Assembly (NCBI RefSeq): GCF_014202505.1
Contig: NZ_JACHGW010000002.1
Span: 620,001-684,000, forward strand
DNA from: Armatimonas rosea
GTDB taxonomy: Bacteria > Armatimonadota > Armatimonadia > Armatimonadales > Armatimonadaceae
Length of the DNA stretch: 64,000 nt
Reading direction: 5' to 3'
The stretch's first letter is position 1. Each line of letters opens with the position of its first letter. Below are positions 229 through 57,363 of the stretch, in pieces. The position numbers and the translations under genes are program-made. Below the pieces are notes generated by a model. That model saw nothing but the letters and a program-made list of their open reading frames with translations, ran no database searches and was not told the origin of the DNA.

Positions 229-230
229 AC

Positions 231-1331: not shown

Positions 1332-1354
1332 GGGCTCAGTATATCGCGTCGCGG

Positions 1355-1666: not shown

Positions 1667-1676
1667 GGGCTCTATT

Positions 1677-2102: not shown

Positions 2103-2114
2103 CTCTACCCTACA

Positions 2115-3399: not shown

Positions 3400-3445
3400 A
3401 CGCTTTAGGACAGTAAAAACAGCGCTTCGGTTGCGTCTTTCGAAA

Positions 3446-4009: not shown

Positions 4010-4046
4010 TGTACCCGAATCATCCCCGCCAAAAGATCGCGCTAAA

Positions 4047-7210: not shown

Positions 7211-8116
7211 ATGTGCACCAACTCTATGGAAGCGTCCTTGCCACGGGAAGTAAGCCCCACCCTTCGCGACGGCGATGTTGAGGTCGCTCGAAGCCTGAAT
7301 AAGAAGCATGGGACGAGCTACTACTTCGCCACGTGCTTCTTCCCACGGCACCTGCGGGAGGCGACCTTTGCGCTCTACGCCTTCTTCCGGGTCCCCGACG
7401 AGTTCGTAGACGACCGGGTGCTGGACGAGGGCGGGGAGGCCAAGGCCCGACTGCTCCTGGAGCACTGGCGTACCGACTGGCACAAGGCCTACGCCCTGGG
7501 AACCTCCCACGATCCGGTGCTCCGGCTCAACGCTGAGGTCTTCCACCGCTACCAGATTCCCTTTGCCTACAGCGAGTCGTTTTTAGAGGCGATGTTCCGC
7601 GATCTCTCGGACACGCGCTACACCACCTACGCCGAGCTGGAGCGCTACATGTACGGCTCCGCCGCTGTGGTGGGCCTCATGATGAGCCACGCGATTGGCT
7701 TCTCGGACCCCCGGGCGCTGGACTACGCCAAGAAGCTCGGCTACGCCATGCAGCTCACGAACTTCCTGCGCGATATCGACGAGGACTTCCAGCAGCGGGG
7801 GCGCATCTACCTGCCGCTCGACGAGCTCCAGCGCTTTGGGGTCAAGGAGACGCAGTTCGCGGAGCGCCGCTTCGATGCCAACTTCTACTCCCTGATGCAG
7901 TTTCAGATGCAGCGTGCCCACCAGCTCTACGAAGACGCCGAGCCGGGGATCGCGCTCCTCAACCCGGAAGGTCGCCGCGCGGTGCGAGTGGCGAGCGCAC
8001 TCTACCGGGCGATCCTGACCAAATTAGAAGAGCAGGGAAGCAACCCGTTTGCCGGTCGCGCTCGCACGAGCACGCTGGAGAAGGTACAACGCACCATGAA
8101 AGTTTGGAATGGCTAA
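7211..8116 (+). CDS. crtB: phytoene synthase (squalene/phytoene synthase family)
   Basis: Condenses two geranylgeranyl diphosphates to phytoene, the first committed carotenoid step. From the ATG at 7211 there are 301 residues; the ATG at 7226 is an alternative start. The two aspartate-rich Mg/diphosphate-binding motifs are visible: DEFVDD in FFRVPDEFVDDRV (about residue 65) and DIDED in LTNFLRDIDEDFQQRGRIYLP (about residue 190). YGSAAVVGLMM between them is also typical. The stop overlaps the start of crtI by 8 bases. A dehydrosqualene synthase would look similar, but the neighbours favour C40 chemistry. Confidence 0.92.
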   Translation: MCTNSMEASLPREVSPTLRDGDVEVARSLNKKHGTSYYFATCFFPRHLREATFALYAFFRVPDEFVDDRVLDEGGEAKARLLLEHWRTDWHKAYALGTSHDPVLRLNAEVFHRYQIPFAYSESFLEAMFRDLSDTRYTTYAELERYMYGSAAVVGLMMSHAIGFSDPRALDYAKKLGYAMQLTNFLRDIDEDFQQRGRIYLPLDELQRFGVKETQFAERRFDANFYSLMQFQMQRAHQLYEDAEPGIALLNPEGRRAVRVASALYRAILTKLEEQGSNPFAGRARTSTLEKVQRTMKVWNG

Positions 8117-32340: not shown

Positions 32341-33576
32341 ATGAATAAAAATGAACCTATATATATAGAAAGTATATTGATGGAAAACAACCCACGATAT
32401 TTCTATGCTGCAGAAGCTTTTTTGAAAAGTGAAAATATGAAAGAGTCATTATTTTTAAGTCGGGAATTTGAAATTAATGAATGTTTTTCCAGATATGAAA
32501 TTGATAATGATTATAGAGATGATATTAATGTTTATGTTCAAAAACAAAAAATACAATACGAAGATATGTACACGAGAATTTGTAATAGCTATAAGAATGG
32601 TGAAGATTTTCTTGAAATTGCTTCTTCTGAATGTAAAAAAATCAATGCTTCTCATTTGACATCGTTCTGTGAATTTAAAAAATGTTACGGAAATATCTTT
32701 AATGAAGTAGATATGTTGGATGATAAAAAAAATTATGTATTTATGCTCAAATATACAACGCAGTTGATTGAATCTCTGTTCTTAGCTTATATGATGTTAT
32801 CACTTATGAATGCTCATAAATCGGGTGATTCTGTTTCAGATGTAACGTTGTATTTAAATGACGATGAAGACCCTGTTTTTAGATTGATGAAATTTGATTA
32901 CTATATTAAATATAAATATAATATTAGGATGTTAGTTTATATGCGAAAAATATTTAATAATATATCACCTGAAGGGTGGGTTTATGCAGTTTACGAATTG
33001 GATAAAAAATTATGGGACGTCTACTACGAAGTAAGTATCGAAGAATGGAGGGATATTAGAGATTGTTTTCGCGCTGCTATGGTAGCTACTGTATGGACAG
33101 CGTCAAAAAAAATGCGTAAAGAGGTATGGAATGCCCTTGCTGATCAAACTCAAGGACAGGGAATGCGAGAAATATTACACGAAATTCTTATGACCGCTGT
33201 AGCATATGTTGATATTGATAGAAGTGGTGAGTTTATAGCAGGCAGATTGCCTTCACGGATTCTGGATAAGATACGATCAGCGTTTCGTACTAAGCGTAAG
33301 CGCGAAGTTGAGATGTCGGATGACATTGAAGACCTAGTTGCCTGTGAACCCTCGCCAGCTTCGGTTTTGAACTTGGAGTCTTTGCTGCCTAAGCTAACAC
33401 CTTCACAGAGGAGATTGATTGAAGCAATGGTGCAGCTATCTGACTCAGGCGAGAAGTTGACTCATGCGAATATTGCCCGATTAACAGGTCGATCCCAGCA
33501 AGCGGTCTCAGCTATGTTGGAGCGTATCCAGATAGCACTTCAGGTAGATGAAAAAAAGAAAAAACTTTTAGAGTGA
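32341..33576 (+). CDS. AT-rich gene with C-terminal sigma-region-4-like helix-turn-helix
   Basis: 411 residues. The N-terminal two thirds are AT-rich and strongly charged, and I do not recognise them. The C-terminal part (about residues 340-400: LESLLPKLTPSQRRLIEAM..., LTHANIARLTGRSQQAVSAM) has the shape of a sigma-70 region 4 or similar HTH that binds DNA. It may be an island-specific transcription regulator or an atypical sigma factor. The composition changes inside the gene, from very AT-rich to near 45-50% GC at the end, which hints at a mosaic origin. Starts 21 bases after the integrase. Confidence 0.65.
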   Translation: MNKNEPIYIESILMENNPRYFYAAEAFLKSENMKESLFLSREFEINECFSRYEIDNDYRDDINVYVQKQKIQYEDMYTRICNSYKNGEDFLEIASSECKKINASHLTSFCEFKKCYGNIFNEVDMLDDKKNYVFMLKYTTQLIESLFLAYMMLSLMNAHKSGDSVSDVTLYLNDDEDPVFRLMKFDYYIKYKYNIRMLVYMRKIFNNISPEGWVYAVYELDKKLWDVYYEVSIEEWRDIRDCFRAAMVATVWTASKKMRKEVWNALADQTQGQGMREILHEILMTAVAYVDIDRSGEFIAGRLPSRILDKIRSAFRTKRKREVEMSDDIEDLVACEPSPASVLNLESLLPKLTPSQRRLIEAMVQLSDSGEKLTHANIARLTGRSQQAVSAMLERIQIALQVDEKKKKLLE

Positions 33577-34212: not shown

Positions 34213-34626
34213 ATGAAAGTATATCTTAAACGCCGCTCATCGGCAACATATCGTCCTCGTCTACGCCTAGTCGCTGGAATCCCAGGTTACCGGCGTTTGG
34301 CAATTCGGCCACTTGTGGACTATCAGCGTCCACAGGCTGTAGGGCGCTACATTGATGAGTCCAACTGTTGCATCCGTTTTGGGCACTTTCGTGGACGTCA
34401 TATCGATGATGTACCACCACGCTATCTCATGTGGGTGCTGACGAGTAGCAAGGAGCTGAATAGTCGCGAGCGTCATGTCGTTGCCTATCATCTCCACCGT
34501 CATCATGGGTTGCCTTATGAGCTTGATGGGGGACTAAGCGACCCATCAAGCTACCAGGCGCATGTCGTGAAATTTCAGGCAGAAGCTTTGGGGAAAGTTA
34601 GCTGCACAGAAGGATCGATCCGATGA
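34213..34626 (+). CDS. DUF3820-like (QSregVF) domain protein
   Basis: 137 residues. The central block IRFGHFRGRHIDDVPPRYLMWVL closely follows the 'FGK(Y/H)KGxxixxvPxxYLxWl' pattern of the DUF3820/QSregVF family, small domains often found beside phage and plasmid replication or exonuclease genes. The basic N-terminus (VYLKRRSSATYRPRLRL) may bind nucleic acid. The stop overlaps the start of the primase gene by ATGA, so it is likely an accessory replication factor. Confidence 0.6.
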   Translation: MKVYLKRRSSATYRPRLRLVAGIPGYRRLAIRPLVDYQRPQAVGRYIDESNCCIRFGHFRGRHIDDVPPRYLMWVLTSSKELNSRERHVVAYHLHRHHGLPYELDGGLSDPSSYQAHVVKFQAEALGKVSCTEGSIR

Positions 34627-37166
34627 GCCCTATGCAGCCAATGACTCCTCTACAGAACGTCCTCACTCGTCTGGAGCGGGTGAGGATTCAAGGCAGTTGT
34701 CACACAGCTAAGTGTCCGGCTCACGACGACGAACGGGCAAGCCTAAGCGTTTCAGAGGGAAAGGATGGTCAAGTACTTCTGAAGTGCCACGCCGGTTGCG
34801 AATGGCGACAGGTTGTCGAAGCACTCGGGCTTACCATATCCGATCTGTTTCCACCTCGGGAGCAGGCTGCGCCGAGCAGCTTGCCGAAGAAGATTCTAAC
34901 TAACCAGTACGATTACATAGACGAATCCGGAAAATTGCTCTATCAGGCGCTACGTTATCAGCCCAAGGAATTCCGACAACGTGCCCCTGATGGCAAAGGA
35001 GGCTGGTCTTGGAGCCTTCAAGGGGTGCGACGGGTACCTTACCGCCTTCCGAAGGTGATTGAGCAAGCCAATGCGGGCAAGACGGTTTTCATCGTAGAGG
35101 GTGAGAAAGATGCCGATGCCTTGGGGGAACTTGGCCTAACTGCCTCGACGAATGCGGGAGGGGCTGGTAAGTGGCTGGAGGGCTTTGGAAAGTACCTCTC
35201 TGGGGCTCATGTGATCATCTTGCCTGACAATGACGAGCCTGGTACGAAGCACGCCCGAGAAGTCGCTATGTCTTGTCTTCCCTATGCAGCTAGTGTGCGT
35301 ATCGTGGAACTGCCGGGGCTCCCTGTTAAGGGAGATGTGAGTGACTGGTTAAAATTGGGAGGCCAACGTAAGAGCCTGCTTGATCTTGTGAAAGCAAGTC
35401 CAAGACTCACACAGGAAGACATGGAAAATGTTTCTGACTCCTCTGAGTCAGGGCGCTACAGAACCTACAAAAATACCGCTCTGGGGTCTGACGGTGAGAG
35501 CTGTGCCAGTTCGGAGATTACGGAAGATAACTCGCCGCCCGTTTTCAATTCATTACCTTCCTCTCTAGAGGCTGAGCTTTTGCCTGTCTCCCAACTCACG
35601 CCGGAAATGCTACCTCCGTCTCTTCGTGCCTGGCTGTTGGATGTTGCCCAGAGACTCTCTTGTCCACTGGAGTATGTCGCCATCCCAGCCATTGTGGCGG
35701 TCGGAGCGGTGATTGGTAAAAAGATTGGTATCCAGCCCAAGCGCTACGATGACTGGAGGGAGTATCCCAACCTCTGGGGGGCAATTGTGGGCCGACCAGG
35801 GGCACTCAAAACGCCAGCTATCTCTGAAGCTCTCAAGCATCTGTATCGTCTAGAGAAGCGTACAAGAGAGAAACACGAGGAGCTGCGTAAATTTTGGGCA
35901 GTAGAATCACTAATCAAGAAAGGCGAGGCAGAGCGTGCCCGTACTGAGCTAAAGAACAAGAACTTGACCGCGGCGCGGAAATACGAGCTCGCAGAGCAGG
36001 TTCTCCAAACCGAGGACGAAGAGCCCAACTGTCCGCGTTGGATTATCAACGATACGACTATCGAGAAACTCGGGGAGTTGCTCAAGGCCAACCCAAATGG
36101 CATGCTTCTGTATCGTGACGAGCTCATGGGGTTTCTGCGCACCTTGGAGCGGCAGGGGCACGAGTCAGATCGCGCGTTTTACCTAGAGGCTTGGAATGGG
36201 AAGGGGTGCTTCACGTACGACCGTATCGGTCGTGGAACAGTATTCATCCCCTCCGTATGCCTTTCTTTAGTCGGGAGCATTCAGCCTGGGCCGCTGTCTA
36301 GCTATCTGAGAGCTTCATCCGAGGAGAGAGGGGACGATGGATTCACTTCGCGTTTTCAGCTTCTAGTTTGGCCAGATCCCGCTGGCTATCATCTCGTGGA
36401 TCGTTGGGCTGATGCGGAGGCAAAGAAAAGAGTCGCCCAAGTTTTCGATGCTCTTGCCGAATGGGCAATGAGTAAGACGGACATTGAAGCAGATGAAGAA
36501 TCTGTCGCCTGCTTGCGATTCGCTCCCGAGGCACAGCAACTCTTCTACACTTGGTTGGAGAGTCTGGAGTATCGAATGCGTGACAGTGGGGAGACAGCCC
36601 TCATGGAAACGCATCTCTCAAAATACAGAAAACTTGTGCCTGCCTTGGCCTTGATCTTTCACTTGCTGGAGAGCATTGATTCCCTGACAGCAGAGCTTCC
36701 TCCCGTATCCCTCGACTCGCTAGAGCGTGCCTTGGCTTGGGCAGAGTTTCTGGAGACTCATGCACGGCGGATTTATCAGGCTGTGGGGGAGGGGGATCCA
36801 GAAGCTGGTCAGCGATTAGGGCAACGCATTAAGCAGAGCCTCCCCAATCCGTTTACGGTTCGTCAGGTTGTCCAAAAGCACTGGGCTGGACTCTCAACAA
36901 CAGATGATGTCGAACGCGCGATAGGGCTCCTCGAAGAGCGTGGTTGGGTTCAAACCCGCGGCGTTCAGAAAGCAGGCGGTGGTCGCCCTTCTGTTCAGAT
37001 CTGGATCAATCCGGCTCTCTTAGGAGCGAATAAAAAATCTTCTGTGTCTGGGGGGAAGACGCTACAAAACCTACAAAACCAGATCTCGGATAGCTCTTTT
37101 GGTTTTATAACGTCTGCGACTGATGATGGCGGTGAAGAGATTCAGTATGAGGAGGGGGAGATTTGA
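34623..37166 (+). CDS. DNA primase / DUF3987 replication protein
   Basis: 847 residues. Order of parts: a CHC2-like zinc finger (HTAKCPAHDDERASLSV ... LLKCHAGCEW, residues 24-60), a TOPRIM domain (TVFIVEGEKDADALGELGL, near 155, with VIILPDNDEPG), a linker rich in Ser/Glu, and from about 320 a DUF3987 region with a P-loop-like GRPGALKTP, LYRDELMGFLRTLERQG and FIPSVCLSLVGSIQPG. Such primase-DUF3987 proteins are the replication initiators of many integrative elements. A C-terminal winged-helix part is suggested by PFTVRQVVQKHW. Strong family call. Confidence 0.88.
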   Translation: MSPMQPMTPLQNVLTRLERVRIQGSCHTAKCPAHDDERASLSVSEGKDGQVLLKCHAGCEWRQVVEALGLTISDLFPPREQAAPSSLPKKILTNQYDYIDESGKLLYQALRYQPKEFRQRAPDGKGGWSWSLQGVRRVPYRLPKVIEQANAGKTVFIVEGEKDADALGELGLTASTNAGGAGKWLEGFGKYLSGAHVIILPDNDEPGTKHAREVAMSCLPYAASVRIVELPGLPVKGDVSDWLKLGGQRKSLLDLVKASPRLTQEDMENVSDSSESGRYRTYKNTALGSDGESCASSEITEDNSPPVFNSLPSSLEAELLPVSQLTPEMLPPSLRAWLLDVAQRLSCPLEYVAIPAIVAVGAVIGKKIGIQPKRYDDWREYPNLWGAIVGRPGALKTPAISEALKHLYRLEKRTREKHEELRKFWAVESLIKKGEAERARTELKNKNLTAARKYELAEQVLQTEDEEPNCPRWIINDTTIEKLGELLKANPNGMLLYRDELMGFLRTLERQGHESDRAFYLEAWNGKGCFTYDRIGRGTVFIPSVCLSLVGSIQPGPLSSYLRASSEERGDDGFTSRFQLLVWPDPAGYHLVDRWADAEAKKRVAQVFDALAEWAMSKTDIEADEESVACLRFAPEAQQLFYTWLESLEYRMRDSGETALMETHLSKYRKLVPALALIFHLLESIDSLTAELPPVSLDSLERALAWAEFLETHARRIYQAVGEGDPEAGQRLGQRIKQSLPNPFTVRQVVQKHWAGLSTTDDVERAIGLLEERGWVQTRGVQKAGGGRPSVQIWINPALLGANKKSSVSGGKTLQNLQNQISDSSFGFITSATDDGGEEIQYEEGEI

Positions 37167-38458: not shown

Positions 38459-38767
38459 TTACTGCCGATGACGAAGTGTTTTGCTGAAGTCGGGATTACG
38501 GAAGGTTGTGATAAGTGAGCCGTCTGCACTGACCACAACCGCTGTGCCTTGTGCACGGTCGGCGAGCTGGGGAGCGATCCCCTGTGGGAGTTGTCTTCGT
38601 CCCAGGAAGAAGACGCGATCCCCTCCTTTCTCGTAGAAACGACGCCCAAATTTCAAGGCTAGGATTACCACCTGATCTCGAATGCCACGCTGGACTTGAC
38701 GACGTTCAAAATGAACTGTCTTTTGAAACCCCATCTCTGAAAAGACATCACACTGCTGTAACACCAT
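38459..38767 (-). CDS. DUF4258-like small protein on the opposite strand
   Basis: 102 residues. A very good Shine-Dalgarno (GGAGGAGGAAG) lies 5 bases before the ATG at 38767. The sequence HFERRQVQRGIRDQVVILALKFGRRFYEKGGDRVFFLGRR and the end TAVVVSADGSLITTFRN have the pattern of DUF4258 or toxin-like proteins (HxxxRxxxRGI, then a beta-strand pair). These are small RelE-like folds of uncertain function. It is the only minus-strand gene in this plus-strand arm. Confidence 0.65.
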   Translation of the reverse strand: MVLQQCDVFSEMGFQKTVHFERRQVQRGIRDQVVILALKFGRRFYEKGGDRVFFLGRRQLPQGIAPQLADRAQGTAVVVSADGSLITTFRNPDFSKTLRHRQ

Positions 38768-38834: not shown

Positions 38835-39482
38835 ATGGAGTTCGTTGTGAACCAAAGGTACCAAGAGTTATGGGAGGAGCTGCGGGGAGGGCATCCGACA
38901 GCTCCTGATCGGTTCTATGTCGCAGTGGCTCCTGTCCTCGTAACTCGGCTTATCCGGTGGGGCAAACTTCAGTTTCCCCGCGAGATCATTGAGGATGCGG
39001 TCACAGATGTCCTTCTTGGGTTAATTCAAGCACCAGAGCGTTTTGACCCGAGTAAGAGTAGCATACTTGGCTATCTTCAGATGATTGTTACGCGGCGTCT
39101 GATAGATCGCCTTAGGCGGCAAGAGAGAAGGCAAACAGAGAAAATAATTTTTCTGGAAGATGTCGCACTTGCCGAGCCTATAGCGAATAGCCTTACAGAA
39201 GATCCGGAACGCGTTGCTCTGCATTCCGGACGTGATCCTGCTTTGGAGTACTCCCCAGAGCTTGAGAATTTGATGGAAGAGCTGCTGCCTGATATACGAG
39301 ATCGGCTTCTTGCGACAGAGTTCTTAGCAGGAAGGCTCTCGGTAGAGATATTTGTCCAAGTCTATGCTTTAGAGAGTCTACCCTTGGCAGAACAGCAACG
39401 TGAGATGAAACGGAACCGTGATCGTGTGATGCTGCGACTCAAGCGCAATCGAGAAAAACTCTGGGAGGCCATCCATGGCTGA
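38835..39482 (+). CDS. ECF-like sigma-70 family factor
   Basis: 215 residues. Region 2 is clear: IIEDAVTDVLLGLIQAPERFDPSKSSILGYLQMIVTRRLIDRLRRQERR (about residues 50-100), with the 'FDPxxSxxxGYL' core that binds the -10 element and core polymerase. Region 4 is less typical, but LPLAEQQREMKRNRDRVMLRLKRNREKL at the end can serve as its recognition helix. The stop overlaps the next gene by 8 bases (ATGGCTGA). First gene of the run to the end-processing cluster, so it probably transcribes that cluster. Confidence 0.75.
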   Translation: MEFVVNQRYQELWEELRGGHPTAPDRFYVAVAPVLVTRLIRWGKLQFPREIIEDAVTDVLLGLIQAPERFDPSKSSILGYLQMIVTRRLIDRLRRQERRQTEKIIFLEDVALAEPIANSLTEDPERVALHSGRDPALEYSPELENLMEELLPDIRDRLLATEFLAGRLSVEIFVQVYALESLPLAEQQREMKRNRDRVMLRLKRNREKLWEAIHG

Positions 39483-39876
39483 GGAATCCACTGTACTGCG
39501 ACGGCTCCGTGATCGAGCGGTTGCTTACGCACAAGAAGATCAACGCACGGATCTTCTCATTTCCTCACTGTCTCTCTGGATGGAGAGTGAGAGTCAAACA
39601 CCAGAGGCACTGGCGCAGTTCCTCGGCACGGATGCAACAGGACTTAGCCGCCTTGCTCTCTGCCGACCTCCTCGCCAAAGTGCGTACATAGAAGATATTG
39701 AGGTGATCGCAGGGTACTCCGGATGCCGTATTGAGCCACTACGACATCTTCTACGACGCCTGGAGGTGTTAACGACTCTGGCGGGGTCTGCACCGACTAC
39801 TGGGCAATTGCCGAACTCGGTCACTCAAGCGATCTTATTAGCAGCACGTGATCGGGAGCTCGGCCCCGATGCCTGA
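39475..39876 (+). CDS. small HTH-like partner of the sigma factor
   Basis: 133 residues. The centre (TPEALAQFLGTDATGLSRLALCRPPR) reads like a helix-turn-helix, followed by YIEDIEVIAGYSGCRIEPLRHLLRRLEVL. No membrane segment and no zinc motif, so not a classical anti-sigma factor. It overlaps the sigma gene upstream and the metallopeptidase gene downstream by 8 bases each. By position it may be the inhibitor of the sigma factor and the substrate of the protease; this is inference only. Confidence 0.6.
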   Translation: MAEESTVLRRLRDRAVAYAQEDQRTDLLISSLSLWMESESQTPEALAQFLGTDATGLSRLALCRPPRQSAYIEDIEVIAGYSGCRIEPLRHLLRRLEVLTTLAGSAPTTGQLPNSVTQAILLAARDRELGPDA

Positions 39877-40603
39877 CGCCTTTTCACAGACACTTGTCCT
39901 GGCGACTCGCTTACGCGAAGAACTGGGGATGGTCCCAACAGAGGTCTTTGATCCTATTGCGGTGTTGGAGTCAGCCTATCCCGTGGCGTGTGTTGCCATA
40001 CCCAGCCTATGTGTGGGGGCTATCCGACAGTGGCTGGAGCAGCGTGTAGAGTCGTTTCCTGCTCAGCTTTTACTCGCAGAACAGGAAGATCGTCCGCTAC
40101 ATGGTGCCGTCCTCGCGTGGCGTGGCGTAGGGCTCTTGCTTGCGGACGAACACGACCCCTGGATCGAGCAGCGCTACACCTATGCGCATGAAGGTGCGCA
40201 TTTCCTTCTTGAGCATTACTTTCCACGCCAAGAAGCCTTGCGCTGCTTGGGAGAGCGAATCCGTCCTGTCTTGAATGGGGAACGCCCCCCGACTCTTGAG
40301 GAGCGCTCCGACGCACTGCTGAGAAACACTGCTCTGGCATGGCATGCACACCTGTTTCCAAAAGACGCCCAGGGTCGCCAGTTTGCCGAAGAGCGAGCCG
40401 ACTGGCTGGCTTGTGGCCTACTGGTGCCTCCAGAAGTGATTCTACAAGGTGAGCAAAAGCAGGTCAGTGCTGATGAGGTCGCGGATACCTACCAGATTCC
40501 TCTCGCGATTGCCAAGGAGTATGTTCTACGCCTATCCTATGAACAAAGACCCAAGAACAATTGTGTGCTCCTAGAGCGCCTCGCATCATACAACCATATA
40601 TAA
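39869..40603 (+). CDS. ImmA/IrrE-family metallopeptidase
   Basis: 244 residues from the ATG at 39869 (overlap ATGCCTGA with the gene before; a GTG at 39848 is in frame but less likely). Zinc-protease motif HEGAHFLLEHYF (HExxH, about residue 105), followed by a later Glu in GRQFAEERADWLACGLLVPPEV, the third ligand region typical of ImmA/IrrE. Family members cleave a specific repressor after DNA damage (IrrE on DdrO in Deinococcus; ImmA on ImmR in ICEBs1). Its position before the repair-type genes fits such a switch. Confidence 0.85.
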   Translation: MPDAFSQTLVLATRLREELGMVPTEVFDPIAVLESAYPVACVAIPSLCVGAIRQWLEQRVESFPAQLLLAEQEDRPLHGAVLAWRGVGLLLADEHDPWIEQRYTYAHEGAHFLLEHYFPRQEALRCLGERIRPVLNGERPPTLEERSDALLRNTALAWHAHLFPKDAQGRQFAEERADWLACGLLVPPEVILQGEQKQVSADEVADTYQIPLAIAKEYVLRLSYEQRPKNNCVLLERLASYNHI

Positions 40604-48137: not shown

Positions 48138-48161
48138 GTGTATAGGAATAGGGTGTTAAAA

Positions 48162-48803
48162 TTGAAAAACAAAGAAATGCTTCTCCTGAGTTTTCTTATG
48201 CTTAGTGGGTGTAATCAGTCGCGCCCTCTACCAACTGTACAGAAGCCAGAAGACCCTGTCTTGAATGTGGTTGCGATAGACCGCAGTGGTAGCACAGCGA
48301 ACATGCGTGAGACTCAGCTGCTGGCGTTAAAATCTGCTTTCGCCAGAGCTGCCGATTGGGGTGAAGAAGTTGCTATCTACATGGTTGACAGAGAGATTAC
48401 CTGCTTACTTCCAGCCGAAAAGATCAATGACGACTCTCGAATCAAAAAACGCGTTTTTGATCAGTTGAAGGAATTAGATGCTTTACGTTCTCAAGGTACA
48501 CGTCCTTATAACTTATGGAAAGAAATGGAGAAGCTATATGCAGGTAAACAAAAGAGTGTTCGTATTCTTTATCTGACGGATGGAGATAACGATTGGAAAG
48601 ATGATGAAAGGCTAATAAGTAGAGCTTTGCTAAGTATTTCTAAGAATTCAAAAATAACAATTGCAATACTTGGATTGAATAAGGATACAGAAGAGGGACT
48701 TAAATCCCAGTTTTCCTGTTTTGGAGGTCGAGTGACATTATCAGTAGGTAAAGAAAAATCTACCATTGCTGCCGGGATCACTAAGTGGAGAGAGAAAAAA
48801 TAA
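48162..48803 (+). CDS. VWA-domain lipoprotein
   Basis: 213 residues from a TTG at 48162 (ATAGGG 9 bases upstream; an in-frame GTG at 48138 adds 8 basic residues). Lipobox FLMLSGC, so membrane-anchored on the outer face of the cytoplasmic membrane. The VWA metal site is visible as AIDRSGST (DxSxS), with the Thr/Asp pair in YLTDGDNDW. Typical VWA strands are NVVAIDRS and ILYLTDG. VWA proteins bind partners through a metal. The stop overlaps the start of the next gene (TAATG). AT-rich relative to the rad50 gene. Confidence 0.75.
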   Translation: MKNKEMLLLSFLMLSGCNQSRPLPTVQKPEDPVLNVVAIDRSGSTANMRETQLLALKSAFARAADWGEEVAIYMVDREITCLLPAEKINDDSRIKKRVFDQLKELDALRSQGTRPYNLWKEMEKLYAGKQKSVRILYLTDGDNDWKDDERLISRALLSISKNSKITIAILGLNKDTEEGLKSQFSCFGGRVTLSVGKEKSTIAAGITKWREKK

Positions 48804-51751
48804 TGGTAAATGTTGCAACAGTACCTCTCACGGAGGCAGAGTCTCCCGTTATTGAGACCGAAGCGATTGAAGGAGAGTTGATTGATGCTAGTGGTGAGGT
48901 TCCCATCCCTGATGACCTTCTTAGTGATGAGGAAGGGAGCCCCCGGTATTCACTACCAAATGAGCTAGTCAAGGTGCAGTATGACATGGTGCCGGTGGCC
49001 ACGGTACCACAAACGGTTGGGCTGAGCGAGCGGATTGTCATTTCTGCTCCCTCGTCCCGGCAGTCGAATCCCTACGACCTCGGTGCCTATGAAGAAGCGG
49101 TTCAGGATCTGAATACGCGGTTTGCGTTGCGTGTTGCCCACGTCCGTGAGGCACGTTTCCGGCTCGTAGCAGCGGGAGAGCGCCATCAGCGGCTATTTGC
49201 CCTTAAGGAGCTCGAACGTCAGAACTTGAACTGGCGTAACCAGGTCAATAATACTCGTCTGGATGAAGAGCTCGCAAGTTTGCGTAAATGGTGGGAAGAA
49301 ACACGTAAGAGCTATAATGATGAAATTAAGCGCATCGAGGAAGACCGCATTACATACCGCATGGAGCGGCACTCTGAGATCGAGGCGGCCCGTAGTGTTT
49401 ACTGGGAGGTGCAAGAGCGGTGTGCCAAAGAGCGTGATATTCGGGACCAAGAACGCCGTCAGTTTGAGAAAGGGCAAGAACGGGACTACCAAAAACATGT
49501 TGATGAGCTCACAAAGCAACGTGATAAACAGCTCTTTGAGGAGCAGCAGGAGGCACGTGAGCGTGAGAAGGCCCTTCAAGAAGAGGTCTTAAAAACACGT
49601 GAAGCGCGGCGTGTGGCTGCACTGCAAGCTGCCGAGGAAGCAGAAGCCAGTGCCGAAGCTGCCGAGCTAGCGAAACAACAAGTTGAGGCTGAGGTTATTG
49701 CTCGGTTCCAGGAACAGCTAACTGCGGCGTCCGAAAAGTACCAGAAAATCTTTGAGGAAGCGGTCACGCGGGTCGAGATGATGGAAGCAGAGCTCCGCGA
49801 GGCTGCCGATAAGATCGAGGCCGAGCTACTTTCTGAGCGAAGTCAGCGCGAAGACTGGTTGCACTCCATAGCGAAAGAGACCGCTGAAGAAGCGGCTCGA
49901 CAAAATGACACAGTTCATGCTGCGCGTCGGACTTTCAATACCACTGTCAGCTCGCAGGCAAAGTTGCCTGGCTTGTCTTCACTGAACAAAGAAGGTGCTG
50001 GTGATATCGTTACCGCACAGACGAACACTGCACATCTTTCTTTTTCAAATCGTCACCATGGATTTAAAAAATATCTTCATAATGTCGGGGATTTTGTTGC
50101 ACATATTGCTCTTGGTAGTATTTTTGGACTAAGCTTGGGACTGCTGACAAAATTTGCTAGGTTGGATGCAGAAAGTATACAGAAATTTGGATATAATTCG
50201 GTCTATGTTTCTTGTGTATTTGGAATATTTATCTTCTTTTTGATTGGTCGTCTTGCATTGAAAGCGAGTACATTTGCCACTGAAGAGATGGATGCATCCA
50301 GAAAATCCGACGAAAAAAATCGAGGTGTGATTGCAGTTGTCTTAGCTTATCTGGTTCTAGTTGGCGTTGTTATCCTAGAAGCTAGTGTCGAGCGCTTTGG
50401 TTTAGGTGAGATCATCCGCAAACAGATGGAATTGAATATGGAATCCGGAGTTCCTAATAAGTATCAGGAGTTCTCTCTCTGGGTCATAGCCTTTATTGTC
50501 TCTGCTCCATTTATGATCTACCATGCCTATGAAGGGGCGATGGAGACGCGCTACCGACTGGGAGAAAAGCAGCATCAGAGCTTACTCGCTGTGCAGCGTT
50601 ATGAGCTGGAAAAAGAAGAGGAGCGACTCAATGAAGAGCGACTCCTAAAGGCTCAGGTTGCCAAGGGTACGCTTGATGCAGAGGAGGCACAGTTGCGGCT
50701 GCTTGGGGAAGGACTTCACCATCCACGACGTGAAGCAGAGCGGCGCATTGAGGAAATCAATGCACTACTGACGACACATCCCGATATTGTCCGGTGGCAG
50801 GAATTTGTTGCGAGACGTGATGCACATTTGTCAACCGATCCACTTCTGATGGAAGCAAAGGCTCAGTGGGATCGTGTAAAGCAAAGCCTCGACTCTGATC
50901 CACGTCTCAAGAGTGCGCGGCTTCTTGCGGAAGAAGCGCGGTTTGCGGCAAATGATGCCCATCGCAAAGCAGAGAGCGCCGAATCAGAGCTGGCCTTTGC
51001 ACTGGAAGACGCGGCTCGACAGCTCATCACTAGGACAGGTTCCAGTGTTGCGGAAGCACTCGGTCAAAAATCGGGCGAGCTTGTCTCAGGAGCGCTGAAC
51101 CTGGCATCGCAGGCGGCCCGTGGTGGTTTGGGCGGGGCTACCTCACCATTTGGTATCGCAGCAACTATAGCCGAGAAAGCTCTTATTCCATCCAATACGG
51201 CGGGTACAGAAGTTGAAACCTGGGAAGAGACGATGGCACGCGAACGGTGGAATAGTTTACGTGGGGCCATTGCAAACGACCCTAAGATCCGTTTCTATGC
51301 AGCACGTGTCTCCTCGCTCCAGAGCATGATCCGAAGTCTGGATACCCAGTATGGTAAGCGGAGAAAGCAACTCATGGATCAGAAGCGCGCGATTGAAGTT
51401 CGCTTGCTTGAAGATGAACATTCCAACCGAATGAGTGAGGCGATGCGCTCGGCCCTCCACGAGGCAGAGCTTGATGTGCAGTCAGCACAATTGAATTTTA
51501 ATGAAGAGATTGATCGGTTGATGAAGCTTCATGCCACACCGTCGTTTCTCCGCTGGATCACCGCCTATTTACAGAATAGGGACAGCCAGTCAAAGAGGCA
51601 GATGGAAGCATCTAGTAGAGCCAAGCCTTTATTGCCAAGTTCTTATCGGACGAGTGAGAATAATGCTAGGGAGATTCCTCCCAAAGGGGGTTCCACAGAT
51701 GTATCTGTACAGGATCGCCCAAACGAAGCCACCATGGTAGGGAGCCGATGA
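48803..51751 (+). CDS. 982-residue membrane coiled-coil protein
   Basis: From the ATG at 48803 (GGAGAGA upstream). Acidic N-terminus, a long coiled coil (about residues 90-385, charged heptads such as EEDRITYRMERHSEIEAAR), then four membrane helices at about 432-585 (FVAHIALGSIFGLSLGLL, VYVSCVFGIFIFFLIG, GVIAVVLAYLVLVGVVIL, FSLWVIAFIVSAPFMIY), then a second coiled coil of about 350 residues with a Pro/Ser tail. Not recognised. By position and shape it may hold the Rad50-like complex at the membrane or sense envelope change. Last gene of the operon. Confidence 0.7.
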   Translation: MVNVATVPLTEAESPVIETEAIEGELIDASGEVPIPDDLLSDEEGSPRYSLPNELVKVQYDMVPVATVPQTVGLSERIVISAPSSRQSNPYDLGAYEEAVQDLNTRFALRVAHVREARFRLVAAGERHQRLFALKELERQNLNWRNQVNNTRLDEELASLRKWWEETRKSYNDEIKRIEEDRITYRMERHSEIEAARSVYWEVQERCAKERDIRDQERRQFEKGQERDYQKHVDELTKQRDKQLFEEQQEAREREKALQEEVLKTREARRVAALQAAEEAEASAEAAELAKQQVEAEVIARFQEQLTAASEKYQKIFEEAVTRVEMMEAELREAADKIEAELLSERSQREDWLHSIAKETAEEAARQNDTVHAARRTFNTTVSSQAKLPGLSSLNKEGAGDIVTAQTNTAHLSFSNRHHGFKKYLHNVGDFVAHIALGSIFGLSLGLLTKFARLDAESIQKFGYNSVYVSCVFGIFIFFLIGRLALKASTFATEEMDASRKSDEKNRGVIAVVLAYLVLVGVVILEASVERFGLGEIIRKQMELNMESGVPNKYQEFSLWVIAFIVSAPFMIYHAYEGAMETRYRLGEKQHQSLLAVQRYELEKEEERLNEERLLKAQVAKGTLDAEEAQLRLLGEGLHHPRREAERRIEEINALLTTHPDIVRWQEFVARRDAHLSTDPLLMEAKAQWDRVKQSLDSDPRLKSARLLAEEARFAANDAHRKAESAESELAFALEDAARQLITRTGSSVAEALGQKSGELVSGALNLASQAARGGLGGATSPFGIAATIAEKALIPSNTAGTEVETWEETMARERWNSLRGAIANDPKIRFYAARVSSLQSMIRSLDTQYGKRRKQLMDQKRAIEVRLLEDEHSNRMSEAMRSALHEAELDVQSAQLNFNEEIDRLMKLHATPSFLRWITAYLQNRDSQSKRQMEASSRAKPLLPSSYRTSENNAREIPPKGGSTDVSVQDRPNEATMVGSR

Positions 51752-51809: not shown

Positions 51810-52553
51810 TTAGTGTAGGCGTAGGATTGGCTCGACAGAATCGTAGCCCTCATGCTCTACCTGTGCTTCCAAGCGCTCTACCTCGGCTTGGAGCACTGTC
51901 GTATCTTCTCCATTGGAGCGGGCTGCGTGGAGCTTGAGCTTTGTGAGCGAAAGACACGGCAGCGGGATAAAGCCTTGATGCGTGTGCCAGGCCACACTGG
52001 GCTCGTTGGCGGGATGGTAGGTGGTGAGAAGCTCTGTGGCCCCTTCGGCGAGGAGCTGAGGAATCACGTAGCGCAGAAGATAGGTCGCCACGCCCTGGTG
52101 CTGATAGCGTGGGCGCACGGCGAGGGTATCGAGAAGGAAACCACTGGCGGTTTTCTTGACCAGTAGCAGAGCCGCTACAGAGCGCGGATGCCGCTTGGGG
52201 CGCAGGATTCGTGAAGTGGGATGGGCACGGGCGATATCTTGGGTGAGCCAGCGCCGGATCTCACGCTCCAGAATCTCTCCGACATAATCACAGAGGTCAG
52301 GCGTATCACGAAATGCCGCGCGGTAGAGCTGGGCCAGTGCCTCTGGTGTGGCATTGGCGAGGGGGGCAAGCACCAGCCCGGCGGGGGGCGTGCTACTTGG
52401 CTCGGGAATGTTGTGGAGTGGTAAGGCACCAACTACTGCTAGCTCACGGGGGCGGATGTGCACGGTGCCATCCCAGTACTCGTACTTCCAGGCGTAGTGA
52501 CGGTGTAGAGCATGAAACTCGTCGATGGGCATCGGAATGTGCTGGGTTCTCAT
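51810..52553 (-). CDS. GNAT-family N-acetyltransferase
   Basis: 247 residues. The acetyl-CoA site is visible in LDTLAVRPRYQHQGVATYLLRYVIP (RxxGxA-like, QHQGVA). Early part FHALHRHYAWKYEYWDGTVHIRP is unassigned. The last part is charged. It overlaps the start region of the PD-(D/E)XK gene by 4 bases and ends the minus-strand defence run. Function unclear: it may act as a tRNA- or protein-acetylating toxin, but no antitoxin is visible. Confidence 0.8.
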   Translation of the reverse strand: MRTQHIPMPIDEFHALHRHYAWKYEYWDGTVHIRPRELAVVGALPLHNIPEPSSTPPAGLVLAPLANATPEALAQLYRAAFRDTPDLCDYVGEILEREIRRWLTQDIARAHPTSRILRPKRHPRSVAALLLVKKTASGFLLDTLAVRPRYQHQGVATYLLRYVIPQLLAEGATELLTTYHPANEPSVAWHTHQGFIPLPCLSLTKLKLHAARSNGEDTTVLQAEVERLEAQVEHEGYDSVEPILRLH

Positions 52554-53680
52554 CGTATGCTTTGAATGGCTTGGTTCAAAAGAGGCAAATCTCCCGTGAG
52601 GAAGGACTCCCAGCTGGCGTGGAGCTCGTCGAGGATCTGCTCTAGTGTCTTCTTGGTATAGGAGCGCGGCGCGATAAGCTCGCGTGAGTAGAGGATAGTC
52701 CAGGCAGCATTGCGTGCGTTTGGTTTAACGGTGAAGGGAGCTCCTTGTGCCTCGGCGAGCGCGATGAGCCGCGCACGATCTGCGGGATCGGTCCCGGCAC
52801 TGATCTGAAGACTAAGACGCAACGACTGAGGCTGGTTGGAGAACCAGAACAGCAGAACACGCCCCTCCGCAGACCACTTACAGGGCCGCCTGCGAGGCAG
52901 AAAGTCATCCCACACAACAGGAACAAAACTCACTTGTGACCGGGCGGCGGGCTTTGCATAGTCGAGAACAAAGATAGAGTTCGCCTTCACAAGCGATTCC
53001 AGCTCTTCACGAATTCGAGTCTGGGGGTCAGCGCGGCGGGCGTAGAGATAGTCGAGGGCGCGGTGGTGGCGCTGGTAGAGCTGGATGCAGAGCGCATCGA
53101 GCTCGTTCTCGTGGAGTACCTGCCGTCGGAGAGTGGCGGTGTAGTGAGTCAGGAGAGTCAATACTTCAGGCTGAAGACTAGGGAGATTCGTTGCCCCCTC
53201 AAGTAGTGTGATGATAGTACTGTACTCGGCGAGCAGGTAGTCAGGGTCTGAGGCGGGTGCTCCTAGTGGTGAGAGGAAGACAAAGACCACCTTCCAGCCC
53301 GCGAAGTGGCGTGCGGCCAGCTCCTTGTAGCGCTTGAGCTGATCGCCGTGCTCTCCTGCCCCGATCTTGTTCTCGATGACCACTGCTAGCCGGGCACGAG
53401 GACAACGGATGAGGATATCTATCCGCTCCCATTCGGTGCGCACTTCTGTATCGGAGAGGTCGGCTGGTTCAGTGAGGCCAAGGTGATGGAGGAAGCCGCG
53501 TAGGAAATGCTCGCCCAGTCCATGTGTCTGGTGCGGGTCCAGCAGGAAGGCGAGGGCTTTGGAGTGGATAACCTCCTGCCGAGCTATCCCCATGGCCTCG
53601 AAGAGATTGAATTGCTGGAGTGCCTGCTCTAGTGCAGCAAGATCAGGGTCGTAGTTTAGGGCTTCTAGCTCAGAGATCAT
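52550..53680 (-). CDS. PD-(D/E)XK nuclease superfamily protein
   Basis: 376 residues. The catalytic core is clear: WERIDILIRCPRARLAVVIENKIGAGEHGDQLKRY (Asp in IDI, then E-N-K, with Gln-Leu-x-x-Tyr after) near residues 88-120, as in the PD-(D/E)XK nuclease family found in defence islands. Early part FNLFEAMGIARQEVIHSKALAFLLDPHQTHG is family-typical. The remainder is helical. Likely acts on invading DNA alone or as a domain of a complex with its neighbours. It ends in the GNAT start (overlap). Confidence 0.85.
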   Translation of the reverse strand: MISELEALNYDPDLAALEQALQQFNLFEAMGIARQEVIHSKALAFLLDPHQTHGLGEHFLRGFLHHLGLTEPADLSDTEVRTEWERIDILIRCPRARLAVVIENKIGAGEHGDQLKRYKELAARHFAGWKVVFVFLSPLGAPASDPDYLLAEYSTIITLLEGATNLPSLQPEVLTLLTHYTATLRRQVLHENELDALCIQLYQRHHRALDYLYARRADPQTRIREELESLVKANSIFVLDYAKPAARSQVSFVPVVWDDFLPRRRPCKWSAEGRVLLFWFSNQPQSLRLSLQISAGTDPADRARLIALAEAQGAPFTVKPNARNAAWTILYSRELIAPRSYTKKTLEQILDELHASWESFLTGDLPLLNQAIQSIR

Positions 53681-53691
53681 GGTGTGAGTTC

Positions 53692-55497
53692 TTAGTATTT
53701 CGTCGTAGCGACCAGAGACATCGTGGCGGTTACGATCTGATCTGGCATCGTTGTATCCTCATGCCCATCTGTCGGGCGGGGCCGCAGTGCGACGTTCCAG
53801 AGGGATGGGGCTAATCCACATTCCTCAAGGACACTCTGTACTGTCGAGCCGTCTTTGATGAGTAGGTTGAAGATTTCCACGTATCCATCGGAGCGGTGCA
53901 TCTCAACGGTGAAGGGGAAGAACTCTGCTGAGAGCATTTCTTGGATGGGGAGTTTATCGGAGGTGATCATCTCCAATATCTGGGGATCGATGATACAAAG
54001 CTCGATTTCTTCTAGTGCTCCCCCGGGGCTGGTTCGTTCAAACTGGCGAATGCCCCGCAAAGTCTGCGCGAAGGGGTGGATGGGATGCCAGAGATTCCTC
54101 GCGGAGAACCCGGAAGCGATGGAGCCAAGAAAGACCCGTGAAAATCCCTGCTGGGCAATCACAGCAAGTCCAGCCGCCACCGCCTCGGGCACCACGGCTA
54201 AGTCACGATAATCACTGTCCCCTTTAGGGCGGCGCGCTGCGATGGCAAAGAGTGGCTCGTTATTGTACTGAAATATATTGGCATTGGTTGTGGAGTCGAG
54301 TGGTTTCCAGAGACTGGACTTGTTTACTCGCCCCGTTGCGGCAAGGTACCCGGTTCCAAAGTTCCCTAGAACCGGTCGGTTATTGCGACGCCCAGCACTG
54401 ACGACAACCGCCGCTCCCTCAGGAATACTAACAGGTGTCGTTCGATGGGAGAGCAAGACTCTTAAGTTGTGCGGGGAAAGAGTGTAGGTTCGAGAGGTGA
54501 GCGCCGTTCTGCCTTGGGGCAACCCTGATACTGGGGAATAGGAGACTTTCAACTCAGCTCGGAGCTGGCTTAAAAAATCGGGAATGTCATCGTGGCTCGT
54601 GGTGAAGAGTGGCGTGATTCCAAGGCGTGTCTGTAAGAACCGCACATCGAAGCGCCCACTGTCGCGCTCAGACGCAGGCAGGAGTGCAAAGTGTGGAAAA
54701 GCACTCGGGCCATGGTTGTAGATGATCTCGCTAAACAGGTTCAGCAAGTAGTCTTCGAGAATCCCTGAGCCAACAAAGAAGAAGGAGCGGCGGCGATAGA
54801 CTTCCGCGAAGGCTCGGCGAAAGTGTGTGTCTCCGTTAATTGCTTGCTGGTACTGCTGGTGCCCAACGACCACCTGGCTTTCCAACTGCAACCGCCGATC
54901 TGGGTCAGGAATGATCTCTTCTGGCGGATTGTGCTGCCCTCCCAGGAACCCCTGAAGTGCCCAGTAAAGAGGCGGTGCGATTCGGTCCAGGGAGCGTAGA
55001 ACCCTGTGACAGTCCTCTAGGCCACGGCCCACGATCTCGGGCATCTGGCGCTCATGCGAGCGGACAATATCGGATGCTACCTGTGAGCGCTCCTTGCAGG
55101 CTGCCCAGTAGAGGTCATCGTAGTTGGTGGTGAGCACCAGCGGCCAGTATAGACCGTTTGTGAGTGCCTTCATCTGTGCGGGAATCGCTTGGCTCCCGAC
55201 AGGGTGATTGTGTATCCCCTCCCGATAGCGCCGCGCTTTTTCCTCGGGTGGTAGAGCGTGCATCTTGTGGACAACGGTGTCGGCGATTCGGTAGAGGGCG
55301 GCGCTCTCCAGAGTTACTGTCGCGTCCGTAAGCTTTCTGGCATCATCGTCCATCCCAGCCTGGTATGCAAGTGTAGCTAGGAACTCGTTCCAGCTCGTGC
55401 ATGTGGTGCGGCTCATGCCGGAGCCGATGAACGGAACCAGGAGGCCACGCTGGTAGAGCGTGACGAGGTTAGGAATCAGGCTATTATCGAGGGGCAT
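53692..55497 (-). CDS. SIR2-domain protein with extra C-terminal modules
   Basis: 601 residues. SIR2-like NAD-binding opening LLVPFIGSGMSRTTC (about residue 20), LVLTTNYDDLYW (about 118) and FFFVGSGILEDYLLNLFSEII (about 245). From residue about 340 a second module contains VVVSAGRRNNRPVLGNFGTGYLAA and VAAGLAVIAQQGFSRVFLGSIASGFSARNLWHPI, which I would compare with macro-type ADP-ribose binders. The last 80 residues (EIFNLLIKDGSTVQSVLEECG) look like a ubiquitin-like beta-grasp. SIR2 defence proteins deplete NAD after infection. The two C-terminal assignments are inference. Confidence 0.8.
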   Translation of the reverse strand: MPLDNSLIPNLVTLYQRGLLVPFIGSGMSRTTCTSWNEFLATLAYQAGMDDDARKLTDATVTLESAALYRIADTVVHKMHALPPEEKARRYREGIHNHPVGSQAIPAQMKALTNGLYWPLVLTTNYDDLYWAACKERSQVASDIVRSHERQMPEIVGRGLEDCHRVLRSLDRIAPPLYWALQGFLGGQHNPPEEIIPDPDRRLQLESQVVVGHQQYQQAINGDTHFRRAFAEVYRRRSFFFVGSGILEDYLLNLFSEIIYNHGPSAFPHFALLPASERDSGRFDVRFLQTRLGITPLFTTSHDDIPDFLSQLRAELKVSYSPVSGLPQGRTALTSRTYTLSPHNLRVLLSHRTTPVSIPEGAAVVVSAGRRNNRPVLGNFGTGYLAATGRVNKSSLWKPLDSTTNANIFQYNNEPLFAIAARRPKGDSDYRDLAVVPEAVAAGLAVIAQQGFSRVFLGSIASGFSARNLWHPIHPFAQTLRGIRQFERTSPGGALEEIELCIIDPQILEMITSDKLPIQEMLSAEFFPFTVEMHRSDGYVEIFNLLIKDGSTVQSVLEECGLAPSLWNVALRPRPTDGHEDTTMPDQIVTATMSLVATTKY

Positions 55498-55521
55498 TGG
55501 GAGGGGTACTACCTTTCAGCT

Positions 55522-56223
55522 CTATGGATTCAGAGAGACGCTCTCGAATGAGAACTGGACTTGATAGGCGATCAGCGTGAGGTTCGAGATCGCACTAGCG
55601 GCGTAGCGTGTGCCTTCGGGGAAGTGTCTAGCCACCAGAATCCCACGGGGCGGCTTGCCGTCGGTCTTGGCATACCAGCCGAGATACCGGGCGATCTGGC
55701 CAACGGCAGCGTCTTTGGCATCGCCTACTTTCACTTCGATCACGACCCGCTCCCCACTAGCATCTTCGGCTAGGATATCAATGCGGCCCACATCGGTCGT
55801 CACCTGCCGACCGATGAACTTCAGCCCCGGCTCCAGAGCATCGAGATGATGAATGAGGTGGTCTTCAATATCACGTTCCAAGCTAATGGAGGTTTCGAAG
55901 TACTGAACGGCGGATGGTGCCAGCGTCAGCTCATCCCCTTCCCCATCACCCTCAGATTCTGGCTCCCACTCGTTTGGCCCATGCAGTTCCTCGGAGTAGA
56001 GTTCCATGCTGCCATCACTGTAGCGGTAGAGGAACTTTGGTGTAGAGGCGTGGTGAATGTAGGCTTTGGGGTTGTTGACCGCGCAGGCATAGAGGTGCGC
56101 CGTGAGAGTACCTGGTCTCCAGCGACCTGGATACTCCGTGTTAATATGGCGTGTCACTGCCTCCGCAGTCACTTTGCCACCTTGGGCTTCTACATAGGCA
56201 CGGATCGCCTGAGACATTGTCAT
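55522..56223 (-). CDS. NucS-like endonuclease domain protein
   Basis: 233 residues. N-terminal about 80 residues look like a winged helix (SQAIRAYVEAQGGKVTAEAVTRHI, PGTLTAHLYACAVNNP). The C-terminal half has the NucS-type PD-(D/E)XK core: IGRQVTTDVGRIDILAEDASGERVVIEVKVGDAKDAAVGQIARYLGWYA (Asp in RIDIL, E-V-K, Gln later). NucS enzymes cut mismatches or branched DNA. Here a restriction role is suggested by position between an HNH gene and the SIR2 gene, 24 bases from the latter. Confidence 0.8.
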   Translation of the reverse strand: MTMSQAIRAYVEAQGGKVTAEAVTRHINTEYPGRWRPGTLTAHLYACAVNNPKAYIHHASTPKFLYRYSDGSMELYSEELHGPNEWEPESEGDGEGDELTLAPSAVQYFETSISLERDIEDHLIHHLDALEPGLKFIGRQVTTDVGRIDILAEDASGERVVIEVKVGDAKDAAVGQIARYLGWYAKTDGKPPRGILVARHFPEGTRYAASAISNLTLIAYQVQFSFESVSLNP

Positions 56224-56245
56224 AATATATCTAAATACTCCAAAT

Positions 56246-57349
56246 TTATGTTTGATTATACGAGGCAGGAATCGATATATGTGACGGTATGAATCCTTGT
56301 AATTCCACAGAATTACTCAATAAGTAATCTATATAGCCAGAATACAAAAAAGAATACGGCCATTTCCCTTTATTATTATCATGATCTGTTTTTATATATT
56401 GTATATGAGGAAGTAAATCTGAAAAATCTAAATGTTTATTCGCTCGTAATTGCTTGTTGATTTCATGTTTTATTCTGCCAACTACATGCTCCATAACGAT
56501 ATATCTCCATTGATCTTCAATTTCAAAAAGATACATGAAGTTTTTGGTGCGGTTTGAATGCCCTCCATTGCTTTCGATGACTTCTATATTGAGTACACCG
56601 TTCTGATTGCGACTGAATTTAACTTTGGCAACATTAGACACGGATTCATGGAACGGCAAGAAACTATCAGGTAGCCCATTTCCATACTTTATAGGATGTT
56701 TAGTACCTTTCAATGTACTGTTACAATGATGACAAGCAGGTAAAAAATTTTCAGGATGAATCGAGAGAAATGGAAAGGTGGCTTTTGGAAAAAAATGATC
56801 TAATGTGTGTGCTGAATGATTATTCTTCGGAGGAGGCATAAGTTGATCACATACAGGACAGACTAGTAGGTCTCTATTATGAATCGAAAAATCGTATACA
56901 AAGTTTGATCGATTGGATACCTTCAGGGGATTTACATTGAAACCTGGCTTGCCGTCAAAGACATCTGAGTATAGATAAACCATTAATTCTTGAATCGTTC
57001 TGTCAAACCATGGACTATCTTTCGTTACAACAAATTTAAATATAAAACTCGGATCATTTATATGTTTCCTAAATTTAATATCATGACAAAAATCGTCAAT
57101 AATAGAATATATGCGTGGTGATCTTGGCATGCACTGAGCTGCCTCTACGGAACTACTTAACAATTTCCGAAGTTTTGGTTTATTCCATATCCATTTTTTT
57201 GTATCATCGCCAAAAAAATTGGCTAGTTGATTTTCATCAAGTGGAAATATTGTAATTGGATCAACGATAAATTTCAGTATTTTTTTCTGAAGCTTTAACG
57301 TATACATCACATTTTTATGATTAATAGGGCGATAAATTTCATGTAGCAA
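56246..57349 (-). CDS. HNH endonuclease, Septu PtuB-like
   Basis: 367 residues. HNH core: CPVCDQLMPPP ... HTLDHFFPKATFPFLSIHPENFLPACHHCNSTLKG (two zinc CxxC pairs, catalytic His in LDHFFP, Asn in PENFLPACHHC), about residues 165-215. The ends are helical and unassigned. The gene is much more AT-rich than its neighbours. With the ATPase gene ending 14 bases upstream it has the composition of Septu (PtuA ATPase, PtuB HNH). An alternative start is the ATG at 57307 (MYTLK). Confidence 0.8.
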   Translation of the reverse strand: MLHEIYRPINHKNVMYTLKLQKKILKFIVDPITIFPLDENQLANFFGDDTKKWIWNKPKLRKLLSSSVEAAQCMPRSPRIYSIIDDFCHDIKFRKHINDPSFIFKFVVTKDSPWFDRTIQELMVYLYSDVFDGKPGFNVNPLKVSNRSNFVYDFSIHNRDLLVCPVCDQLMPPPKNNHSAHTLDHFFPKATFPFLSIHPENFLPACHHCNSTLKGTKHPIKYGNGLPDSFLPFHESVSNVAKVKFSRNQNGVLNIEVIESNGGHSNRTKNFMYLFEIEDQWRYIVMEHVVGRIKHEINKQLRANKHLDFSDLLPHIQYIKTDHDNNKGKWPYSFLYSGYIDYLLSNSVELQGFIPSHISIPASYNQT

Positions 57350-57363
57350 CTGTGGGGATCCTT

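Follow-up and report, generated by a model that had tools for sequence, protein, structure and literature searches.

Overall organization of the locus

The window, by which we mean the whole 64,000-nucleotide stretch of DNA that was analysed, carries three overlapping forward-strand genes encoding a sigma factor, a small middle protein and an ImmA/IrrE-type metallopeptidase, followed on the same strand by genes for a NurA-like nuclease, a HerA-type translocase and SbcD- and SbcC-like proteins (Table 1). The HerA, SbcD-like and SbcC-like genes are linked by 4-base overlaps, as given by their coordinates. The first-pass annotation had placed the three leading reading frames here with an 8-base overlap at each junction, and the sequence and ORF coordinates confirm the frames, their positions and the junctions. 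The second overlap is conditional on the protease starting at ATG 39869, the longest open reading frame beginning at GTG 39848; the ATG is preferred because the protease of two relatives begins at an ATG in a 4-base overlap. Among the seven loci with a readable sigma/middle junction, the overlap measures 8 bases in four, 4 bases in two and, from coordinates, 17 bases in one. Overlapping junctions of this kind suggest translational coupling; they point to coupling rather than to stoichiometry, and the earlier statement that the three proteins are made in ratio is unsupported. The trio itself stands, but it heads a longer operon with five or more conserved genes, of which it supplies three; the likely target operon had been overlooked.

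Table 1 Features of the module in the window and the basis of each assignment.
Feature	Position	Strand	Basis
ECF-like sigma-70 family sigma factor, 215 aa	38835..39482	+	Sigma70_r2, TIGR02937, PDB profile matches
8-base overlap, sigma stop / middle start, ATGGCTGA	39475..39482	+	sequence
Middle protein, 133 aa; probable degenerate XRE-type HTH core ~28-104, flexible linker ~105-113, C-terminal helix with LLAARDR	39475..39876	+	AlphaFold, hhalign
8-base overlap, middle stop / protease start, ATGCCTGA	39869..39876	+	sequence
ImmA/IrrE (M78) metallopeptidase, 244 aa; HEGAH at residues 107-111, Glu174, long insert between the two	39869..40603	+	PF06114 family, motif
NurA-like nuclease, 392 aa	40656..41834	+	fold of low-confidence model; gene context
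HerA-type translocase, 610 aa	41855..43687	+	DUF87 E 2.9e-22
SbcD/Mre11-like phosphoesterase, 399 aa	43684..44883	+	Metallophos E 2.1e-14; same position in L007
SbcC/Rad50-like ATPase, 1085 aa	44880..48137	+	SMC_N E 8.7e-11, SbcC_Walker_B 3e-4; same position in L007

Proteins of the trio

The window sigma protein matches Sigma70_r2, a domain matched in four of the seven sigma family members, above the Pfam cut-off (E 8.3e-12), and it aligns with TIGR02937 over residues 36–209 at 35 bits, under the cut-off of that model. No Pfam match to sigma-70 region 4 was found among the seven members. A profile built from seven rows of the family recovers the ECF factors RpoE (2q1z, E 2.6e-5) and SigK (4nqw) from the PDB. 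The sigma subfamily was looked for outside the trio in one search only, a tblastn of plasmids, which gave no match.

The middle protein of the window has no match in Pfam, NCBIfam or PADLOC. Within its family, HTH_19 matches one of seven members (E 0.058), and no curated Pfam HTH family matches above threshold. An AlphaFold model from a seven-row alignment predicts a core of five helices at residues ~28–104 (pLDDT ~90), beyond which a low-confidence linker leads to a C-terminal helix bearing the conserved LLAARDR-like motif. Foldseek places XRE-type regulators (C.EcoT38IS, DdrO and CapH) among the top matches, none of them significant (best E 0.4), with DdrO 6rnx at rank 2 (E 0.69, likewise not significant) and CapH at rank 25, and VIA-align returns XRE proteins mixed with SRP54 M-domains at equal Z, to a maximum of 4.7. 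In a profile comparison, hhalign aligns the middle-protein profile in register with that of four XRE domains taken from fused XRE–M78 proteins over 61 columns (probability 52.6, E 1.4e-4), the three control alignments giving probabilities of 0.1–0.65. With moderate confidence, the middle protein is thus probably a degenerate XRE-type helix-turn-helix protein, as judged from the profile and the predicted fold. The HTH-like partner proposed on first reading is borne out to the extent of this XRE-like look in hhalign, which resembles the substrates of ImmA/IrrE proteases. The middle protein is acidic in seven of the eight loci (pI 4.5–5.4), and this acidity, together with its place right after the sigma gene, is compatible with an anti-sigma role; its XRE-like profile is compatible with a repressor role.

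Peptidase_M78 matches the window protease at E 0.0011 and 19.2 bits, just under the cut-off of 22, and PF06114 is found in all seven protease family members scanned (E<=1), the best at 2.9e-10. At the level of the family, these matches make a firm prediction of M78 (ImmA/IrrE) membership. The HExxH motif and a downstream Glu on an ExxAD-like helix are kept in all eight proteases, 67–74 residues apart. The sole PADLOC match of the window protease is capP (E 3.5e-4, 18.1 bits), and the PDB structure of CapP (7t5t) is matched by a seven-row protease profile at E 0.11. The ImmA/IrrE proteases IrrE/PprI and CapP are described as cleaving XRE-type repressors and as being activated by single-stranded DNA (PMC10904395; PMC13373217). 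The family proteases measure 244–275 aa, against 291–301 aa for IrrE and CapP chains, and because the chain is shorter, the sensing of single-stranded DNA may not carry over to the trio protease. In the genome G333 (locus L021), the middle and protease parts form a single reading frame at 7955–9079 with HELGH intact. This fusion links the middle protein with the protease, with the qualification that it is seen on one contig and may be an assembly artefact.

The downstream operon

The 392-residue product of the gene that follows the trio has no sequence match of note in Pfam or elsewhere, and the Pfam NurA family (PF09376) is negative; that family detects 41 of the 291 own-phylum genomes, with the window gene not among its matches. 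For the predicted fold, which comes from a poor model (pLDDT 52), the nine top PDB entries are all NurA, HerA–NurA or TdpAB (Z 8.4–5.9), and the next entry lies at 4.2. Asp102-Gly103 is invariant in all eight NurA-like proteins, and hhalign places the pair, at low probability, on the D-G motif of NurA (acidic motif I). We treat the protein as a putative diverged NurA-like nuclease on the strength of this predicted fold and motif.

Two further genes lie after SbcC (48138–51751, + strand), one encoding a 221-aa protein that looks VWA-type by eye and the other a 988-aa coiled-coil, membrane-type protein with no Pfam match; neither is seen in L007.

Conservation of the module

The order sigma / middle / M78 protease is found in eight loci, namely the window, two further own-phylum genomes, three genomes found by way of Actinomycetota, and two contigs of (pro)phage-like character from IMG/VR. 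The NurA-like gene directly follows the trio in all eight, HerA comes next in each of the seven in which the contig continues, and SbcD and SbcC come after HerA in two. Among the 291 own-phylum genomes, the window protease as query matches three, that of the window, G030 and G211. In both G030 and G211 the sigma, middle and protease genes stand in the same order and are followed by NurA-like and HerA genes, with SbcD and SbcC also present in G211. Profiles of the middle protein and of the NurA-like protein recover the same three genomes, two weak extra matches of the middle profile (L011, E 3.2e-4; L012, E 0.0055) having been dropped, since in other frames these two loci encode sensor-kinase and ferredoxin-type genes and they contain none of the module. 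Across loci, the middle protein is 21–36% identical to the window copy, too low a value for the arrangement to have been copied recently as a block.

The queries from the NurA/HerA side are blind to the presence of the trio, and four of the five loci that they found carry it (L018, G333, L024 and G647), the exception being G389 (L022). On the protease side, three of three finds have the other trio genes and NurA/HerA; a scan of genome contigs with the protease yielded at least one locus, L013, which belongs to an Actinomycetota MAG and carries the complete set of five genes. G647 is the sole locus added by class-level sampling, and on the L024 contig the sigma gene is present as its C-terminal part only. 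Initial viral scans gave no match for the protease, one for the NurA-like protein (L018) and two for HerA, and later scans repeated these two contigs. Plasmids and GenBank phages gave no match to the protease or NurA-like queries, and plasmids gave none to the middle and sigma queries. Seven of nine genomes with protease matches were not counted, as these matches (E ~2e-5 to 9e-5) cover just 35–109 positions; those with readable ORFs are M78 proteins of a generic kind, in several of which an XRE HTH is fused to the protease. A hypergeometric value of 7e-12 for co-occurrence of the protease and the NurA-like protein was set aside as partly circular, the profiles including loci already found.

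Co-conservation of the trio in other genomes, which the first reading had named as a check on its proposal, is thus seen in eight loci and in one middle–protease fusion. Trio genes occurring apart from one another, which would have spoken against that proposal, were not encountered in the searches run, except at the one diverged locus L022. There, positions 1–4278 hold a diverged NurA-like / HerA / DNA methyltransferase locus with no visible trio; the contig begins at the NurA-like gene, the upstream part lying off it, and a search of the genome at E<=1e-4 finds no protease of the family. This locus suggests that the effector part may occur with other control genes.

Genomic setting and promoter region

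The setting of the module is mobile defence islands. In the window, a tyrosine integrase at 31306 opens the island, and SIR2, Septu-like and type I restriction genes come later. Two loci lie on phage-like contigs, L024 with a tail protein (E=0) and an endolysin, and L018 with an integrase and an endolysin. A DNA methyltransferase (N6_N4_Mtase) is encoded beside the module in four of the eight loci (L013, L018, L021 and L024) and also adjoins the L022 genes. In the three own-phylum genomes no such neighbour of the module was found; methyltransferase matches there occur only at other places in the genome, the best in G211 (E 3.9e-29).

Promoter and terminator scans at the module stayed at chance level, and neither a promoter motif nor a significant operator emerged. 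A perfect 8-base inverted repeat, TGTCTTTT-N15-AAAAGACA, lies at 38717–38747, 88 bases upstream of the sigma start; repeats of this kind are near chance expectation, and we do not claim it as an operator.

Model for the control of the operon

Gene order, its conservation, the protein families and the one middle–protease fusion make up the observed part of the model that we favour. To this model we give about an even chance: the trio would be the control head of a mobile, protease-triggered NurA–HerA DNA-processing operon, most likely acting against invaders or in a damage response. At rest, the XRE-like middle protein would hold the operon off by sequestering the sigma factor, by covering the promoter, or by both. 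Foreign or damaged DNA would yield a signal, possibly single-stranded DNA as with IrrE/PprI and CapP, upon which the ImmA/IrrE protease would cleave the middle protein, and the freed sigma factor would guide RNA polymerase to the operon and lead to the making of NurA–HerA. Cleavage of the middle protein, the signal, the sigma targets and the defence purpose are what we infer from the arrangement. Support comes from the trio with its NurA-like gene in eight of eight loci, the fusion, the XRE likeness, the phage-like contigs, the relatives activated by single-stranded DNA and the CalpL/CalpT/CalpS triad discussed below; the model is weakened by the non-significant fold matches of the middle protein, the shorter protease, the lack of a promoter motif or operator in the scans, and the trio-less L022. 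The switch proposed in the first-pass annotation, in which the middle protein would be both substrate of the protease and inhibitor of the sigma factor, is plausible.

The XRE likeness also fits a classical ImmA/IrrE logic, in which the middle protein would repress the operon by binding DNA, as DdrO and CapH do, until removed by the protease, and the sigma gene would be the first gene derepressed, with no contact between middle protein and sigma factor. The in-register profile match and the occurrence of DdrO and CapH among the fold matches argue for such a repressor, as do known XRE/M78 pairs, which are described as governing adjacent immune operons (PMC13373217). It would leave the constant sigma gene in need of another role, and it sits less easily with a middle protein that is acidic in seven of eight loci, that matches no Pfam HTH above threshold and that has no clear operator upstream of the sigma gene; we consider it possible, at a probability well short of even. 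The purpose of the operon may also lie elsewhere. In archaea, HerA–NurA with MRE11/RAD50 is described as resecting DNA ends and making 3′ single strands (PMC8910471), and with SbcD–SbcC present in two loci the operon could be a damage-induced one for DNA repair by HerA–NurA–Mre11–Rad50 end resection, not directed against invaders. Its patchy occurrence (three of 291 own-phylum genomes), the phage-like contigs, the adjoining restriction systems and the methyltransferases in half of the loci argue against this repair function, which we consider about as probable as the repressor reading. We think it very improbable that the middle protein and protease are a toxin–antitoxin-like pair stabilising the mobile element, with sigma and NurA–HerA as mere neighbours: in Brucella, a ZnMP/HTH-Xre pair is reported to form a type II toxin–antitoxin system (PMC10538038) and the modules are located on mobile elements, but the order with sigma, NurA-like and HerA genes is constant in spite of the low identity of the middle proteins.

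Comparison with known systems

The protease-triggered model resembles, in its protease / inhibitor / sigma logic, two arrangements from immunity: CalpL/CalpT/CalpS, described as a protease / anti-sigma / sigma triad (PMC12751052), and type III-E CRISPR, in which a protease is described as cleaving a sigma-factor inhibitor (PMC11291478). General annotation of the window ORFs and the family matches, as distinct from a dedicated CRISPR search, brought up no CRISPR effector gene. CalpL is a Lon-SAVED protease and that of type III-E CRISPR is not known to be M78, unlike the protease here, so that the trio shares a likeness of working, not membership. A bolder form of the model, which we put forward tentatively, would make the module a CRISPR-free counterpart of these type III CRISPR triads: an M78 protease, probably sensing single-stranded DNA, would cut an XRE-derived anti-sigma factor and free a dedicated sigma factor for an anti-invader module of NurA–HerA, with Mre11–Rad50 or a methyltransferase, on prophages and islands, and resection by NurA–HerA would add to the signal and latch the switch.

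CapH–CapP is similar in having an HTH-like gene adjoining an M78-type protease ahead of a DNA-targeting operon, a likeness that extends to the PADLOC match, but it differs in that a sigma gene leads the unit here and in that the operon is NurA–HerA here and CBASS in CapH–CapP. The spacing from HExxH to Glu is also different, being roughly 30–35 residues in CapP, as read off an alignment, compared with 67–74 in the trio protease. DdrO–IrrE (PprI) of Deinococcus likewise has an XRE-like partner and an M78 protease, whereas here the pair shares an operon with a sigma factor and the genes that this factor likely controls. HerA–NurA, TdpAB and DUF4297–HerA share with the module a HerA-type ATPase and an adjacently encoded nuclease; in contrast to them, the nuclease here is missed by Pfam NurA and the operon has a dedicated sigma/HTH/protease head. 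A sigma–HTH–ImmA/IrrE unit with HerA–NurA was not found described in the literature, judged mainly from titles and abstracts and with few subscription papers covered. If the model holds, proteolytic sigma release would be a general principle of immune control beyond CRISPR, a protease of the type that senses single-stranded DNA would be paired with a machine that makes it, and a sigma-factor type would join CapW, CapH+CapP and CapK+CapS among the controls of immune operons. The module would then offer a compact test case for an XRE-like protein as an anti-sigma factor.

Other genes on the island

Beside the integrase, a 411-aa protein (32341–33576, + strand) has a C-terminus resembling sigma-70 region 4 (Pfam E 0.0088; PHROG sigma factor E 1.9e-4) and these matches suggest that the island with the trio encodes another sigma-like regulator. 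The run of defence genes at 52550–63826 (− strand) comprises a PDC-S26-like gene, SIR2_2, a NucS_C-like nuclease and a pair of HNH/PtuB-like and PtuA-like ATPase genes, as well as, by Pfam, a type I restriction S subunit that carries pentapeptide repeats; the gene at 61346–63826 (− strand) probably encodes a type I M subunit, judged on sequence alone. Primase-like genes that resemble each other in their zinc-finger/toprim start occur in the window island (34623–37166, + strand; DUF3987) and, as seen by eye, on the phage-like contig L018 (20396–21131).
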